Assembly (NCBI RefSeq): GCF_016801985.1
Contig: NZ_JAEVLS010000003.1
Span: forward strand, 744,001 to 808,000
Source: Steroidobacter gossypii
GTDB taxonomy: Bacteria > Pseudomonadota > Gammaproteobacteria > Steroidobacterales > Steroidobacteraceae
DNA: 64,000 bases
Direction of reading: 5' to 3'
Shown: positions 8,515-53,835 of the stretch, piece by piece
How the letters are laid out: every line of letters starts with the position of its first letter
How positions within the stretch are numbered: the stretch's first letter is position 1
Notes under the pieces: model-generated
Told to the model about the DNA's origin: nothing
Seen by the model: the letters and a program-made list of their open reading frames with translations, nothing else
Databases searched by the model: none
Program-made: the position numbers and the translations under genes

Positions 8515-9663
8515 ATGGCTAAAAGCAGGTTCTGGTTCCAGGCCCACTGGCTGGTGGGCATCACGGTGGGCGTGTTGCTTGCATTGATGGGAGTCACTGG
8601 CGCCATGATGTCGTTTCAGGATCCGATCCTCGAGGCGCTGAATGCGGATGCGCGCAAGGTGACGATGGCAGGTGAGCGCCTGTCGATGCCGGACATCATC
8701 GAGCGCGCCCAAACCGAAGCGCAGCGCATGGGCGCTCGCGTGCGCACCGTGACCGCGCCGCAGAGTGCGGACAGCGCGGTGCGCGTGCTGTTTCTATCCG
8801 GGCCCGGTGAGATCGTTCGCTATCTCAATCCGTATACCGACGAGTGGCAGCGTGGCGGCGCGCGTGGCGAGAAGTTCTTCGAGATCGTCGAAGAGATTCA
8901 TCGGGGGCTGGTTACTGATCGCATCGGCGGCAAGTACGTGGGTCGACGCGTCGTGGACGCCGCCGCCGTGTTGCTGGTGGGCCTCGTGGCCACCGGTTTG
9001 TATCTTCGATGGCCGCGGCGGCTCACGAACTTCCGCGCATGGTTCGTGGTCGACCGGAGATTGAAAGGTCGCGGCTTTCTGTATTCACTTCATGCGGTCA
9101 TCGGCACCTACGTGTTGCCGCTGCTGCTGCTGTCTGCGTTGACGGGCCTGTATTTCGCGTATGACTGGTACAGCTCGCTGCTCGAGCGTATGGCCGGGGT
9201 GCCGCCGGTGGCCGAGGAGCAGATGGCGGGCAAGCCGCTGGTGGCCGCGGATGTGGCGAAGGTGTGGAGCGCGTTCGAACAGGCGACCTCGCACGAGAGG
9301 GTGGGTCAGATCAGCCTGCGTCTGCCGAAACAGGCCGAAGAGCCGCTGCGCATTCAATATCTCGAGTTCGATCCACCGCACGCCACCGCGTTCAGCACCA
9401 TAAAGATCGATCCCACCAACTCACAGGTGCTCTCGCATGTTCGCTATGCGGACAAGAGCACGGGCGCGCGCTTGCTCTCGAGCATGCTATCGATTCACAA
9501 GGGCGCCTATTTCGGCGTCGTGGGCAGCGTGCTGCTGATGTTATCGAGCCTTGCGCTGCCCCTGTTCGTGATCACCGGCTGGATGATGTACGTCGATCGC
9601 AGGCGGGTCGAGGAGCGCCAGCGCGCGCGCAAGCAGAAGGCGGCGAGCGCCGCGACGGTCTGA
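8515..9663 (+). CDS. PepSY-associated transmembrane protein (PiuB-like)
   Basis: A 382-residue inner-membrane protein with one helix near the N-terminus (HWLVGITVGVLLALMGVTGA), a periplasmic stretch, two central helices and a last helix near residue 350 (GSVLLMLSSLALPLFVITGWMMYVD). This is the PepSY_TM topology of proteins linked to iron-siderophore uptake and ferric reduction. ATG 8515 was chosen because the membrane-anchor start MAKSRFWFQAHWLVG is conserved in the family; an upstream in-frame ATG at 8425 adds 30 unlikely residues. A reductase or transport-accessory role is inference. Confidence 0.82.
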   Translation: MAKSRFWFQAHWLVGITVGVLLALMGVTGAMMSFQDPILEALNADARKVTMAGERLSMPDIIERAQTEAQRMGARVRTVTAPQSADSAVRVLFLSGPGEIVRYLNPYTDEWQRGGARGEKFFEIVEEIHRGLVTDRIGGKYVGRRVVDAAAVLLVGLVATGLYLRWPRRLTNFRAWFVVDRRLKGRGFLYSLHAVIGTYVLPLLLLSALTGLYFAYDWYSSLLERMAGVPPVAEEQMAGKPLVAADVAKVWSAFEQATSHERVGQISLRLPKQAEEPLRIQYLEFDPPHATAFSTIKIDPTNSQVLSHVRYADKSTGARLLSSMLSIHKGAYFGVVGSVLLMLSSLALPLFVITGWMMYVDRRRVEERQRARKQKAASAATV

Positions 9664-37491: not shown

Positions 37492-37722
37492 ATGGCGGCG
37501 AAATTCGAAGCTGATCGTGAACCCCTCGTTACGGCGGCTGTGGAGTGGTATGTCCGACTGCGCGACGGTATTTTGACAGCCGCAGAACGCAAAGAGCTGA
37601 TGAGTTGGCTCCAGAAACCCTCGCACTGCCGCGAGTTAATGGCGATTGCGAGGATGGACGGAATGGTTCTGGGGCGTGAGATGACGGGTTGGCATACCCG
37701 CAATCGGCGTCGTATCCACTGA
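37492..37722 (+). CDS. Stand-alone FecR N-terminal domain (DUF4880) protein
   Basis: A 76-residue protein that matches only the N-terminal part of FecR-type anti-sigma regulators (VTAAVEWYVRLRDGILTAAE, then RKELMSWLQKPSHCRELMAIAR). In full-length FecR this piece lies in the cytoplasm and binds the ECF sigma factor FecI. There is no membrane helix and no FecR periplasmic domain after it. TGGAGA stands 10 nt before ATG 37492. A TonB receptor and a FecR lacking this domain lie 1.5 and 5 kb downstream, but no ECF sigma gene is seen. Confidence 0.65.
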   Translation: MAAKFEADREPLVTAAVEWYVRLRDGILTAAERKELMSWLQKPSHCRELMAIARMDGMVLGREMTGWHTRNRRRIH

Positions 37723-39202: not shown

Positions 39203-42070
39203 ATGTCCGTGTTCTTGTCATGGAAGAGTGCGTGCATATGCTCACATGTGCCCGTACTCCTGACGCTGGTCAGCGCTGCATGCATCGCTGCTTCCCGTAC
39301 TGACGCCCCGCCCATCGGCGATGAGAATGAAATTCGATTCTCTCTCTCCGCCGGCGTCCGGCCGGCTCGTGAACATGCCGAAAGTCTCCGTGTTTTCACC
39401 GGTTACGAAGCCAAACCGGGTGAGTGCGGCAATGTAGTGCTCGGTCCGCTGCCGGAAGGCGAATATACGGGCGAGGAGGCATGGCGAGCCTTGGTAGGTC
39501 GCGTATGTCGCCTTGACGATCGGCTTGACGCGAAATCCGGCAAGATACAAACGTTTGCAAATATGCACGAGTGCACGTGCAGTTTTGGATTCCCGCCATA
39601 CACGCCTGTGGAGCCTCGCAGCCTGCAGGTGACGAGTTCTCCGCTACCAATGCTGGGCGAATCCATTCCGAGCAAGGTTGTTGTGATCCATCGCCGAAAC
39701 ATCGAGGAGACCGGCGCTGCCAGCGTTCCTGATCTCCTGCGTTACGTGTCTCAGACTGCTTTCCATCGTGGTTCAGGATTTCGTGGCTCGGGGGCTCAGT
39801 TCGCCGAGCTTCGTGGACTGGGCGCAGAATATACATTGGTCCTAGTCAATGGACGTCGCACCTTCGGTACCGCATCTGACCTCACGACCAGCGCCTTCGA
39901 TCTCTCAGCCATTCCCATCAGTGCAGTGAAGCGGGTTGAGATCAGCATGGACGCCAATTCCCTGCTGCATGGAATGGACGCGATCGGTGGCGTGGTCAAC
40001 CTGGTATTGAACGACAGCGTCGAGGGCGACGCGACAGTGAGGCATGATTACCTCGCCGGCGGAGGTTCACAGACACATGCATCGCTCAGCGGCGGCAAGC
40101 GAGGTGATCGTGGCCGAATGGCAGTCTACTTTGACTATCAGCACTGGAACGAATTGCTGGGACGCGAACGAAACCGATGGAGTAACCAGGATTTCGCACG
40201 CTTTGGAGGGCGAGACTATCGTTCGAGATTCGCTTATCCCGCGAACGTGACCTCGCTGAATGGTGAAGACTTGCCTGGTCTAGGTTCGTCTATTGCTGTC
40301 GCCGCAGTGGATCCGGACACAGGCTTGTTCGATTTCCGGCCCAGGGAAGAGAATCGCACGAGCCTCAGAGCGTTCCAGTCCATCGTTCCTGAAGGATACC
40401 GGGCAACGTTGTGGGCGAACGGCTCGTTGAACCTCGGGCGCGCGGTTGCGAAACTCGAACTGCTCGCGAGCGAACGCGAGAACGAGTTGCAACTCAAACC
40501 AGCGACCTCGCCAGGATACATTTGGGGCCCGAATCATCCGGAGAACCCATTCGATGTGCCGGTCAGGGTCGAAGCATCATTCTCCGGGTTACCTGCGAGT
40601 CGCCAGCAGTACACGACGAACTCGGTGCGCGCCGTCGGCGAGATTGCTGGCCCGCTCGGTGACTGGGACTACACCGCCTTCGTCGTTTACTCCAATGAAG
40701 AGGCAGAGGCGCGTATGCGCAACGTGCCCGATGAAGTTGCTCTCGCCGATGGCTTGATGGGAGATGACCCCAGCGAAGCCTTGAGTCTGTATAGCACCAT
40801 ACGACTCACCACGTTTCCGCCAGATCTGTTTGTGAACCCGCCGGCGGCCCGATACGACACTAGTGCAACTCACTTCCAAGGATCGTTGCGCGGCTCCCTC
40901 CTTGAGCTTCCGGCAGGTCAGCTGATTGCACATCTGGGCGCGGAGTACCGAGACGAGCGGATGAACTTCGATACGAGTATTCGTGGAGCACAACGCGATG
41001 TACGCTCCGCTTTTGCACATGTGAGTCTGCCGCTGGTCGATCCCTCGATGCACGTAAAGGGAGCATACGACCTACGACTGCTGATGGGCGCGCGATCGGA
41101 TCACTATGACGACGTTGGCACTGTCACGAAAAAGCAGCTGGGGATGGCGTGGCGGATGACCGAGGCGCTGACTTTGCATGTCGCGACGAGTCAGTCGTTC
41201 CGTCCACCCTCGTTGGTCGATCTGTACTTCCCGCGGGTTTCGATGACGACGGAGCTCTTCGATCCAAAGCGCAGCGAAACAGCGCCAGTGGAGTTGATGA
41301 CGGGTGGCAACCCGCAGCTCCGTCCATCCACCGGACGGTCCACCAGTCTCGGTCTCTCATTCCAGTCGCGCAGCGGCTTGAGCTCATCTGCCGAGTATTG
41401 GCGCATCAGAGTTCGGGACCACATCAAACTGTTGGCTCCAATGACTCTGCTGGCGCACGAGGACGGCGCATTGTTTGGCCGCATCGCGCGAGCCGCGCCA
41501 ACTGAGGAGGACCTGGCTGCCGGTCGACCGGGAAGATTGACTCGCGTGGACAACTCGCGAGCCAATGTGGGTGGCGCGTTCGCCGAAGGCGTGGATCTGG
41601 GCGCCGAAATACCCATCGAGACGCAGATTGGCACGTTCACGCCACGAGTCGCAGTAACGCTCACCGACAGGTTCGAGTATGGCGATCTGCCGACCGCGAC
41701 GGTGCAGATGGAAAATCGCGTGGGCGTGGCCTCTGAATATGGAACGATTCCGGCACAACGAGGTGTGTTCTCGGTGACCTATGATGGCAGGGCATTCAGC
41801 GCATCAGTCCACGCGCGCGTGATTTCCTCCTATCGGGACAGGGATTACGCAACAGGTATGCCGATGCAGAGACGGGTCCCACGTAGCACCATCCTGGATC
41901 TGAACATTTCCAAAGCCATCTCGGATCACCTTCAAGTGACGCTGGGCGCCTTCAACGTGACAAACAGGGAGCCGCCCTATGCATTTATGGGTGGCCCCCT
42001 AGGTTTCGATAGTTCACAAGGCTCGCTCGAGGGGCGTGAACTCTACGCGACGATCAGCAGGAAATTCTAG
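39203..42070 (+). CDS. TonB-dependent receptor with N-terminal STN domain
   Basis: A 955-residue outer-membrane receptor. Signal peptide (SHVPVLLTLVSAACIAAS) first, then a secretin/TonB short N-terminal (STN) domain at about 45-120 (FSLSAGVRPAREHAESLRVF, EYTGEEAWRALVGRVCRL) used for signalling to a FecR. The plug follows (GAASVPDLLRYVSQTAF, AEYTLVLVNGRRTFG, AVKRVEISMDANSLLHGMDAIG), then a beta barrel ending in YATISRKF. STN receptors couple substrate uptake to FecR-FecI regulation; a FecR gene lies 570 bp downstream. The substrate is unknown. Its last 57 bp overlap a small antisense gene. Confidence 0.9.
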   Translation: MSVFLSWKSACICSHVPVLLTLVSAACIAASRTDAPPIGDENEIRFSLSAGVRPAREHAESLRVFTGYEAKPGECGNVVLGPLPEGEYTGEEAWRALVGRVCRLDDRLDAKSGKIQTFANMHECTCSFGFPPYTPVEPRSLQVTSSPLPMLGESIPSKVVVIHRRNIEETGAASVPDLLRYVSQTAFHRGSGFRGSGAQFAELRGLGAEYTLVLVNGRRTFGTASDLTTSAFDLSAIPISAVKRVEISMDANSLLHGMDAIGGVVNLVLNDSVEGDATVRHDYLAGGGSQTHASLSGGKRGDRGRMAVYFDYQHWNELLGRERNRWSNQDFARFGGRDYRSRFAYPANVTSLNGEDLPGLGSSIAVAAVDPDTGLFDFRPREENRTSLRAFQSIVPEGYRATLWANGSLNLGRAVAKLELLASERENELQLKPATSPGYIWGPNHPENPFDVPVRVEASFSGLPASRQQYTTNSVRAVGEIAGPLGDWDYTAFVVYSNEEAEARMRNVPDEVALADGLMGDDPSEALSLYSTIRLTTFPPDLFVNPPAARYDTSATHFQGSLRGSLLELPAGQLIAHLGAEYRDERMNFDTSIRGAQRDVRSAFAHVSLPLVDPSMHVKGAYDLRLLMGARSDHYDDVGTVTKKQLGMAWRMTEALTLHVATSQSFRPPSLVDLYFPRVSMTTELFDPKRSETAPVELMTGGNPQLRPSTGRSTSLGLSFQSRSGLSSSAEYWRIRVRDHIKLLAPMTLLAHEDGALFGRIARAAPTEEDLAAGRPGRLTRVDNSRANVGGAFAEGVDLGAEIPIETQIGTFTPRVAVTLTDRFEYGDLPTATVQMENRVGVASEYGTIPAQRGVFSVTYDGRAFSASVHARVISSYRDRDYATGMPMQRRVPRSTILDLNISKAISDHLQVTLGAFNVTNREPPYAFMGGPLGFDSSQGSLEGRELYATISRKF

Positions 42071-42199
42071 GAAGCCGGGGTACGGTCCGCGTCCAAAGAA
42101 ATGGTCGGGGTACTCCTGTGAGATCCAGTGCTGCTTGGTTTCTGCAGTCACCTCGCCCAGATCAATCATTTCAAGGGCGTTGTCATGCTGAGCTTTCAT
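42014..42199 (-). CDS. Putative lasso-peptide-type precursor
   Basis: A 61-residue gene with an excellent GGAGG 9 nt upstream of ATG 42199. Residues 1-22 (MKAQHDNALEMIDLGEVTAE plus TK) fit the proteobacterial lasso leader pattern L-x-x-LG-x-(A/V)-x-x-(E)T-x, with Thr at -2 before the core. The would-be core begins QHWISQEYPDH and contains Glu at position 7 and Gly/Pro/Phe later. Gln at position 1 is unusual, since Gly, Ala, Ser or Cys are common. The last 18 codons lie antisense to the 3' end of the TonB receptor gene. No lasso cyclase, protease or isopeptidase gene is in the window, so it would be an orphan. Confidence 0.5.
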   Translation of the reverse strand: MKAQHDNALEMIDLGEVTAETKQHWISQEYPDHFFGRGPYPGFLEFPADRRVEFTPLERAL

Positions 42200-42642
42200 G
42201 GCGCAGATCCTCCGATTGAGATGATCGCGCAAGATACGGTCCTTACGTGCATGGACTGGGTCAATACGTACTCGGGTCTCACGCAGAGCACCCGCTGATA
42301 AACATGATGAAAGTGTCCCTAGACGGGGTTAGGGTGCGCCGCAGACCACCAGCGGATCAACATAGATCGCGCGCTGCGTTGCCGAAATGGGCTGGACGTA
42401 CGCTCCATCCGGTCATCCCAAGGATTCCGCCTGCAAAACAGCGGCTAGGGGCAACTGCATAACAACGACTTGTTGAGCTCTCGCCTGGGCGATCAGCGGA
42501 AATGATAAGGGCGAGCATGCTCAACGTATGAGCAGCGAAGACGTCGAGCCCGGGGTGGGTCTGTTACTGAATTGGGTTGCAAGTGCTGCGCGCGGTGTGG
42601 TGGAAGCGCTGCGACGTGCAGGAGTCTGAAGTGGCCGATGGA
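42200..42642. other. Intergenic region between precursor-like gene and FecR gene
   Basis: About 440 bp. On the minus strand TTGACC (42264-42259) lies ~60 bp before the small gene's ATG and could be a -35 element, but no matching -10 stands out. No other gene is supported. Confidence 0.35.
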
Positions 42643-43299
42643 ATGTCTCATGAGTCAGAGCCCCAGAGTGCGTCGGAACGGGAAGCGACGAGGCGGAAAG
42701 CTGAGGTGATCGAACTGCCAATGAATTGGAGATCAAAGAACAATCTTCTCAAGCTCGCCAGACTGGGGCTGACGCCGAAGGAAAAGTGGCGTCGAAACAT
42801 CGCGGTTTGCTGCATCGTGCTCGCGACATCGGTGGGTCTGGCCTATACGTTGGGCGCTTGGAATGCAATTCGTGCATTCGTGGATAGAGGCGCGATCGTG
42901 CAGATTCCGACTCGCGTGAATGCAAGTGCGAGCACGCTCGATAGCGCGTACCAGATCACGTCAGATGAAGGCGGCACCCAGACGTTCGAGGACGGCACGG
43001 ATGTCGAGTACGCGGCGCACACCACCGTGGAAGTCGATTTCTCGGCAGGTCGACGTGTGGTTCGTCTTCGCGCGGGCAGCGCTACGTTCAACGTGGCGAA
43101 GGATCCTCGTCGGCCATTCATCGTGTTGGCGGATGGGTTGAGTGCGACTGCCGTGGGTACGAAGTTCGATGTCACTGTCACTCCAACTGTCCGAGTGCGT
43201 GTTTACGAGGGAGTGGTGGCGGTGGCGGAAGGACAGGTCAAGGCCGGGCAAATGGTAAGAAAGCTGAAGGCAGGAGAGGAATACGAGCGGCCGCGCTAG
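42643..43299 (+). CDS. FecR-domain protein lacking the N-terminal DUF4880 domain
   Basis: A 218-residue membrane protein. A ~45-residue cytoplasmic part rich in charged residues, one helix (IAVCCIVLATSVGLAYTLGA) near 50-70, then a periplasmic FecR domain (YQITSDEGGTQTFEDGTDVE, VEVDFSAGRRVVRLRAGSAT, FNVAKDPRRPFIVLADG, AVGTKFDVTV). In ordinary FecR the cytoplasmic side is a DUF4880 domain that holds the sigma factor; it is missing here. ATG 42643 is the best candidate; TTG 42577 is also in frame. It follows the STN receptor gene and probably senses it. Confidence 0.75.
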   Translation: MSHESEPQSASEREATRRKAEVIELPMNWRSKNNLLKLARLGLTPKEKWRRNIAVCCIVLATSVGLAYTLGAWNAIRAFVDRGAIVQIPTRVNASASTLDSAYQITSDEGGTQTFEDGTDVEYAAHTTVEVDFSAGRRVVRLRAGSATFNVAKDPRRPFIVLADGLSATAVGTKFDVTVTPTVRVRVYEGVVAVAEGQVKAGQMVRKLKAGEEYERPR

Positions 43300-53528: not shown

Positions 53529-53625
53529 CGCTGCGAGGAAACGCGTACTTCTGGTCGGGGTTCAGCCGCGCTCGGGGTTGATCTAACAACGAGAACCCTG
53601 AGGTCCAGCCCGGAGGGACGAGCCC

Positions 53626-53835
53626 ATGTCAGCGGATATCGAAGCTCGAAGAAAGGCCGTCATCAAGCAAGCCGCCGAGTGGTATGTGCGGTGCATGGAT
53701 CAGGATATGACGCTGCAGGAGTGTGAAGAGATGCACCGGTGGCTCGAGGCCTCCGTCGAGCACGAGGTGGAGTTCGCCAGCATGTTCAGGCTGGATGCGC
53801 ACCTCATCCTGCATTCGAAGCGCGTGCTGCAGTAG
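53626..53835 (+). CDS. Stand-alone FecR N-terminal domain (DUF4880) protein
   Basis: A 69-residue protein with the DUF4880 pattern (VIKQAAEWYVRCMDQDMTLQ, ECEEMHRWLEASVEHEVEFA) and nothing after it: no membrane helix and no FecR domain. GGAGGG lies 9 nt before ATG 53626. It resembles the protein at 37492-37722 in layout (AAxWYVR...WL...). No sigma factor or TonB receptor is next to it. A free-standing sigma-binding peptide is a possible role, by inference only. Confidence 0.68.
   Translation: MSADIEARRKAVIKQAAEWYVRCMDQDMTLQECEEMHRWLEASVEHEVEFASMFRLDAHLILHSKRVLQ

Follow-up and report, generated by a model that had tools for sequence, protein, structure and literature searches.

An orphan lasso-type precursor gene at the end of a TonB receptor gene in Steroidobacter gossypii, possibly matured in trans

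Can a gene that resembles a lasso peptide precursor be functional when no maturation enzyme is encoded near it, and if so, which enzymes would act on its product? This question is raised by a short gene of Steroidobacter gossypii that lies in a stretch of 64,000 nucleotides (the window; positions 744,001 to 808,000 of contig NZ_JAEVLS010000003.1, here contig C25 of genome G000) and runs antisense to the end of a TonB-dependent receptor gene. The initial annotation described it as an orphan lasso-type precursor that might be matured in trans, and this central reading is supported by the sequence tests presented here. The explanation that we favour, and regard as fairly probable, is that the product is a functional precursor of the lasso type, that its locus would have lost its own protease (B) and cyclase (C) genes while keeping the receptor, and that the precursor would borrow shared enzymes of the type encoded on another contig, C31, in trans.

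The precursor gene (gene A) occupies positions 42014-42199 on the (-) strand and consists of 61 codons and a stop. The frame is supported by its translation, by orthologues at two further loci (L053 and L054) and by a profile match obtained without these three genes, and its product is MKAQHDNALEMIDLGEVTAETK-QHWISQEYPDHFFGRGPYPGFLEFPADRRVEFTPLERAL, where the hyphen marks the probable cleavage point. A GGAGG ribosome-binding site at 42209-42213 (-), kept before the start in both orthologues, is separated from the ATG by nine bases. An alternative TTG start is possible 11 codons upstream; the start common to the window gene and its orthologues is the ATG that follows the ribosome site. Three parts can be distinguished in the product. 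The leader of 22 residues (42134-42199, (-)), delimited by profile positions 1-22 and by the family motif, ends in DLGEVTAETK, with Thr at -2 of the putative cleavage site. It is followed by a conserved core part of 21 residues (42071-42133, (-)) with Gln1, Glu7, Asp10 and Gly16, which lies outside the receptor open reading frame (ORF), and then by a C-terminal extension of 18 residues and the stop (42014-42070, (-)), which by the geometry of the overlap is antisense to the last receptor codons. The receptor ORF ends at 42070, giving an antisense overlap of 57 bp, and exactly 43 precursor codons lie outside it in all three orthologues. Translation and coordinates thus bear out the 61-residue frame, its GGAGG site and the 57-bp overlap as first described. 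About 60 bp before the ATG, at 42259-42266 (-), TATTGACC was seen by eye within a block that the three orthologues have in common and that is shorter by one base in G003; the block is a possible promoter element. No promoter motif common to the three precursors of the window genome was seen in one alignment inspected by eye.

The leader aligns over positions 1-22 to two curated lasso-precursor profiles, NF033522 (benenodin; E 0.0057, 16.5 bits, cut-off 33) and PF24178 (Subterisin; E 4.8e-4, 20.5 bits, cut-off 27). As both scores are under the curated cut-offs, the precursor resembles these families but is filed in neither. With its Thr at -2, the leader is a candidate for recognition by the lasso RRE and protease. 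When a profile was built without the window gene and its two orthologues, the window frame was the sole significant match (E 1e-7) among the window's 1,634 six-frame segments, and with a profile restricted to the ten precursors adjoining B and C genes it was at rank 1 (E 3.7e-5). A scan of 791,631 bases with a leader motif derived from the family gave 25 occurrences, all at family loci (25 of the 26 members), and three block-shuffles gave none, a control that is partly circular because the motif came from the family itself. The lasso-type leader with Thr at -2 proposed in the initial annotation stands on the profile alignments, under their cut-offs, and on the leave-out profile.

The gene is conserved in relatives. 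A search with the protein against 60 genomes, the window genome included, gave strong matches in two other species of the genus (G001:C19, E 1.5e-15; G003:C5, E 2.8e-15), all other matches listed being weak (E 0.005 to 1). Matches inside long unrelated frames, such as L065 (a 649-aa frame) and L066, were dropped. The sole match of a contig search, L032 from a metagenome-assembled genome of Deltaproteobacteria, looks like chance: it has no lasso leader, and the residues that match fall within a frame of 98 codons, antisense to a gene judged by eye to be helix-turn-helix-like. The two precursor orthologues are 45% and 56% identical to the window product, and the receptors at these loci are 50% and 54% identical to that of the window. 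Both loci keep the same layout, with the antisense precursor over the last 45 bp of the receptor gene and a FecR-type gene following on the strand of the receptor, and the ribosome site, frame and place of the precursor are retained in the three species. The nonsynonymous rate (dN) within this trio is 0.31-0.47, against a synonymous rate (dS) of 1.29 to saturated; for 42 of the 43 codons outside the overlap, the corresponding values are 0.32-0.43 and 1.88 or saturated. Among 14 selected precursor pairs, which have members in common and so are not independent, dN is below dS in 13. Judged from its fixed place in three species and from these substitutions, the precursor frame is real and under purifying selection. 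Relatives that share the receptor thus have orthologous frames, and the absence of selection that the initial annotation had considered is contradicted by a dN far below dS.

The trio belongs to a larger family. A 14-member profile run over 14 genomes of the genus gave 27 places at E <= 0.1, of which 26, in ten genomes, were retained; G010:C1:2389612 (E 0.061), which lies within a 269-aa frame, was left out. With a 26-member profile, the same 26 places in the same ten genomes, belonging to one of 25 genera, were found among 217 genomes of the taxonomic family, and only G000, G013 and one weak partial match among 369 genomes of the class. As the members of a profile match it by construction, the new information here is the absence outside the genus. 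The weak partial match is in G550 (E 0.0091).

The gene organization around the 26 loci was examined by tblastn in stretches of 7.7 to 64 kb. A, B and C genes occur together at ten loci, A and B only at one that is cut by the contig end (G006_C43), A and C without B at two (G003_C7 and G009_C49), and neither B nor C at 13, the window included. In the 64-kb window, tblastn found no B, C or isopeptidase gene, as had been stated before. The precursor is thus indeed an orphan, but not a singleton: it is one of 13, the others being G001_C19, G003_C5, G001_C4, G011_C12, G011_C9:61k, G011_C9:1283k, G001_C1, G011_C9:2556k, G003_C2:1380k, G001_C9:423k, G000_C31:62k and G006_C246. For two of them, G006_C246 above all, orphan status is less sure because their contigs are short (7.7 and 8.4 kb); the G006 assembly consists of some 620 pieces. 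Four orphans (G000_C31:62k, G001_C9:423k, G003_C2:1380k and G011_C9:2556k) are separated by some 16-22 kb from the complete set in the same genome, the remaining ones lying on other contigs or more than one megabase away.

Each of the 13 orphans is convergent with a related TonB receptor gene, the two ends lying -57 to +132 bp apart. Seven orphans leave a gap of 53-132 bp to the receptor ORF, one is directly adjacent to it and two share 4 bp with it. At the complete sets of G000, G001, G003, G009 and G011, it is the C gene whose end faces that of the receptor gene. One syntenic locus is found in two stages, with A and C in G003 and G009 (L057 and L058) and with A alone in G001 and G011 (L055 and L056), which suggests a stepwise loss of enzyme genes, gain being less likely; we infer that the window locus arose in the same way. 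Removal of B and C from the convergent layout of A-B-C and receptor is a plausible cause of the antisense overlap, so that the 57 bp noted as unusual in the initial annotation are confirmed and can plausibly be accounted for. The receptors closest to those of the trio belong to three orphans with end distances of 0, -4 and -4 bp, and since the gene ends there just touch or overlap slightly, the 45-57 bp of the trio look as if read-through had occurred later and thereby created the C-terminal extension.

Which enzymes could then act on the orphans? For the initial annotation, a genome devoid of lasso enzymes, together with no transcript, would have spoken against the reading; the genome-wide search found four adjacent B/C pairs (PF13471/PF00733) in G000. 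None is on the window contig C25, where two strong Asn_synthase matches have no B partner. The complete set on contig C31 (L050) includes a precursor with Gln1 and Asp10. Its B protein matches the lasso B2 domain NF033537 (61.5 bits, cut-off 33), has a PqqD-like match under the cut-off (25.8 bits against 70), and contains a Cys201-His233 pair, 32 apart, with an Asp 11 further on, while its C protein is above the PF00733 cut-off and keeps SGGLDS. Six genomes (G000, G001, G003, G006, G009 and G011) have a complete set without an isopeptidase match, a test that rests on one seed, and the precursors lacking a B gene are confined to exactly these six of the 14 genomes. G002, G008, G010 and G013 have no orphans, and their sets include an isopeptidase-like gene; the other four genomes have no family member at all. 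The chance of such a coincidence of six with six is 1 in 3,003 if shared ancestry is ignored, and for that reason the co-occurrence is support and not proof. The window genome also has an isopeptidase gene, above the NF033523 cut-off, in a lasso cluster of another type (L051). Near the complete sets, an ABC transporter gene encodes 618 aa in G000 (L050 11045-12901); fragments of it are seen in G011 (L060 9461-9886), G003 (L110 10248-11138) and G001 (L064, about 8858-9043), and it was not found in G009. At L114 (G006:C93, 10427-13264), A and B are followed by a partial cyclase match, towards which a full-length match on the opposite strand is directed.

The family cores start with Gln in 21 of the 26 cases, with Glu in three, and with Cys and Gly in one each. 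Gln1, called rare in the initial annotation, is therefore the norm. An Asp at position 8-10 is present in every core (Asp10 in 20, Asp9 in five, Asp8 in one), and Gly16 in 18. The acid that closes a lasso ring is expected at core positions 7-9, where the trio has a Glu7 that is specific to the three orthologues and invariant in them. Asp10 is the acid found most often in the family and hence the better candidate for ring closure, and a natural ring of ten residues is accordingly likelier than one closed at Glu7. The Glu7 pointed out earlier is present, but in view of the family it is the less likely ring acid.

An alternative is that the product is no longer cyclised and acts as a linear peptide ligand of the adjoining receptor, perhaps trimmed by a protease and carrying an N-terminal pyroglutamate. 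N-terminal Gln readily turns into pyroglutamate, which at Gln1 would block ring closure, and the cyclase gene is absent near 13 of the 26 loci. However, Gln1 is also found in six of the ten precursors that stand beside complete B-C sets (L050, L060, L064, L113, L114 and L122), and the Asp at core positions 8-10 is kept in 26 of 26 members, as expected of a ring closer. We consider a linear ligand unlikely.

A second alternative keeps the lasso fold and assigns it to another B/C set of the genome (L049, L051 or L052), or to a seven-residue ring closed at Glu7. There are three further B/C pairs in the genome, Glu7 is invariant in the trio, and full-length similarity scores do not part the lasso types cleanly. 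The receptors help here. The window receptor (39203-42070, (+), 955 aa) has a plug, a barrel and an STN-like N-terminus, as judged from Pfam, the receptor tree and a structural model. A receptor search gave 53 matches, 25 linked to a precursor and 28 unlinked, 20 of the latter being examined, and a quick maximum-likelihood tree was calculated for 51 receptors: the 25 linked ones, these 20, and six of other lasso types. A branch with support of 100 parts 32 receptors, namely all 25 linked and seven unlinked ones, from the other 19. The receptors of L051 and L052 fall outside this clade, and no L049 receptor is in the tree. The receptor clade, the convergent layout, Gln1 and Asp10 all fit the C31 type, and the family profile made from precursors with enzymes in cis detects the window gene. 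Maturation by another set, or through Glu7, thus appears improbable to us. Candidate precursors of other types were seen at L049 (10475-10618) and L117 (9394-9543), both with Gly1, and at L052 (10861-11001), where the leader ends in ETQ before AHWHG.

Several observations weigh against the favoured explanation. Outside the trio, core-to-core pairwise similarity is at chance (z -1.3 to 2.6), so that the relation between the cores rests only on Gln1, Asp10 and Gly16. Full-length similarity to other lasso types (z 7.9 for L052 and 7.0 for L117) overlaps the range within the family outside the trio (z 5.6-11.2), and the C31 enzymes are thus not singled out by these scores. One precursor pair, G001_C1 and G011_C9:1283k, has a dN of 0.21 and a dS of 0.19. 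Seven receptors of the clade (L157, L158, L159, L160, L162, L164 and L173) have no recognisable precursor at their 3' ends; at the 3' ends of all 20 unlinked receptors examined, no precursor was found by motif and no significant one by profile. Finally, tblastn found no extracytoplasmic function (ECF) sigma gene in the window, and the FecR-type protein encoded at 42577-43299 (+), identified by domain search and also present in both orthologous loci, lacks the anti-sigma (DUF4880) N-terminus.

The gene might also be a decaying relic whose enzymes were lost and whose sequence is drifting, in line with the FecR pieces described below and the missing sigma gene in the window, and with the receptor of only 509 aa beside the G011_C12 orphan. 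This is already weakened by the substitution pattern, dN being well below dS in 13 of the 14 pairs and over the 42 non-overlapping trio codons compared, and by the retention of the ribosome site, the frame and the location in three species; we regard it as very unlikely. The earlier idea of a remnant may apply to the locus, where enzyme genes were probably lost, but not to the gene itself, which is under constraint. That there is no peptide at all, but an antisense RNA regulating the receptor 3' end, is hardly credible: the 45-57 bp overlap is conserved in three species, yet the amino-acid constraint lies outside it and ten of the 13 orphans stop short of the receptor, abut it or overlap it by only 4 bp.

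Returning to trans-maturation by C31-type enzymes, we regard as established the frame, the leader, their conservation, the fixed place at the receptor end, and the presence on contig C31 of B and C genes of matching type. The C31 protease would recognise the leader and cut after ETK, and the cyclase would link the N-terminal amino group of Gln1 with the side chain of an acidic residue, Asp10 being the most probable, to form a ring of ten residues. Less one water, the calculated mass is 4686.298 Da for the entire core of 39 residues and 2546.156 Da for a core of 21 residues ending at the receptor stop; trimming of the tail is likely. The C-terminal extension would be a by-product of the read-through into the receptor antisense strand. 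The exported peptide may be a dedicated ligand of the adjoining receptor, for signalling or for cargo uptake; with no sigma gene found and a FecR that lacks its anti-sigma part, signalling can only be proposed, and uptake is an equal alternative. One enzyme set might serve several scattered pairs of precursor and receptor. Extending this, we tentatively propose, with the chances somewhat against it, a dispersed system in which one isopeptidase-free B/C set per genome would serve several unlinked Gln1 precursors with a natural ten-residue ring, each tied to one particular TonB transducer and sensed by its producer as a private signal, the pairs having arisen by repeated loss of B and C.

Concerning the surroundings, the initial annotation placed the gene between an STN-type receptor and a FecR gene. 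The TonB receptor and the FecR-type gene are present, but the STN assignment is weaker than stated. Pfam finds the plug and the barrel in the window receptor, and its STN model gives no match even at E 10; the C31 receptor has a weak STN match (E 6e-4, under the cut-off), and some of the linked receptors show an STN-like motif, as does the consensus of the linked receptors. An AlphaFold model of the window receptor (mean predicted local distance difference test score, pLDDT, 80.6) contains, at 46-120, a strand-helix-strand-helix-strand-strand unit of low local confidence. Motif and model agree with an STN-like N-terminal domain. In the receptor next to the G011_C12 orphan (L056, 7786-9315), the ORF is 509 aa long and the N-terminal half is not in frame; the adjoining precursor looks intact. 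Two FecR N-terminal pieces are found by domain search in the window, one upstream of the receptor (37513-37662, (+); DUF4880) and a second at 53614-53799 (DUF4880-type), each a possible remnant of a lost sigma/FecR pair.

How does this system relate to known ones? The benenodin/subterisin-type precursors (NF033522, PF24178) share the leader length, the motif and the Thr at -2 with the window gene, which differs in its scores under the cut-offs, its Gln1, the commonest family acid at position 10 and the lack of adjoining B, C and isopeptidase genes. The benenodin core begins with Gly1. Metanodin comes from a soil bacterium of the order Steroidobacterales; the authors present it as the first Asn1 lasso peptide and note Gln at core position 1 in its second closest match (PMC12670498). 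Metanodin resembles the window gene in its proteobacterial A-B-C type, its Thr at -2 and its non-standard amide residue at position 1, but its precursor is clustered with enzymes and an isopeptidase gene, whereas the window locus has Gln1, Asp10 and no enzymes (PMC12670498). Clusters of the astexin/AtxE2 kind combine an isopeptidase with a TonB receptor and a sigma/anti-sigma pair (PMC9266682), and the tie of receptor and FecR-type gene is also seen here; in contrast, no isopeptidase was found at the window locus or, with one seed, around the six complete sets, and the matching enzymes are on another contig. The caulosegnins also have one enzyme set and several cores, three precursors being matured within one cluster (PMC13352647), while the present precursors are scattered, each at its own receptor. 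For citrulassin, a tailoring enzyme is encoded far from the lasso cluster (PMC12971885); the pathway is likewise split across the genome, but there the tailoring enzyme is remote and here it is the precursor that is remote from the core enzymes. According to a 2026 review, structurally characterised rings have 7, 8 or 9 residues, and engineered fusilassin tolerates 7-10 (PMC13352647). No report of scattered lasso precursors was found in the titles and abstract beginnings covered, subscription papers and outside preprints being beyond this scope.

Lasso genome mining commonly begins from B and C genes and would then overlook 13 of the 26 members, or half, of this family. Should trans-maturation of the orphans prove true, the number of precursors in a genome is higher than such counts suggest, and a single enzyme pair has a natural tolerance for different substrates. 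A naturally occurring ring of ten residues closed at Gln1 would, if true, extend the known ring sizes. Each of the fixed precursor-receptor pairs predicts a peptide bound by its receptor, which offers a route into the role of receptor-associated lasso peptides.

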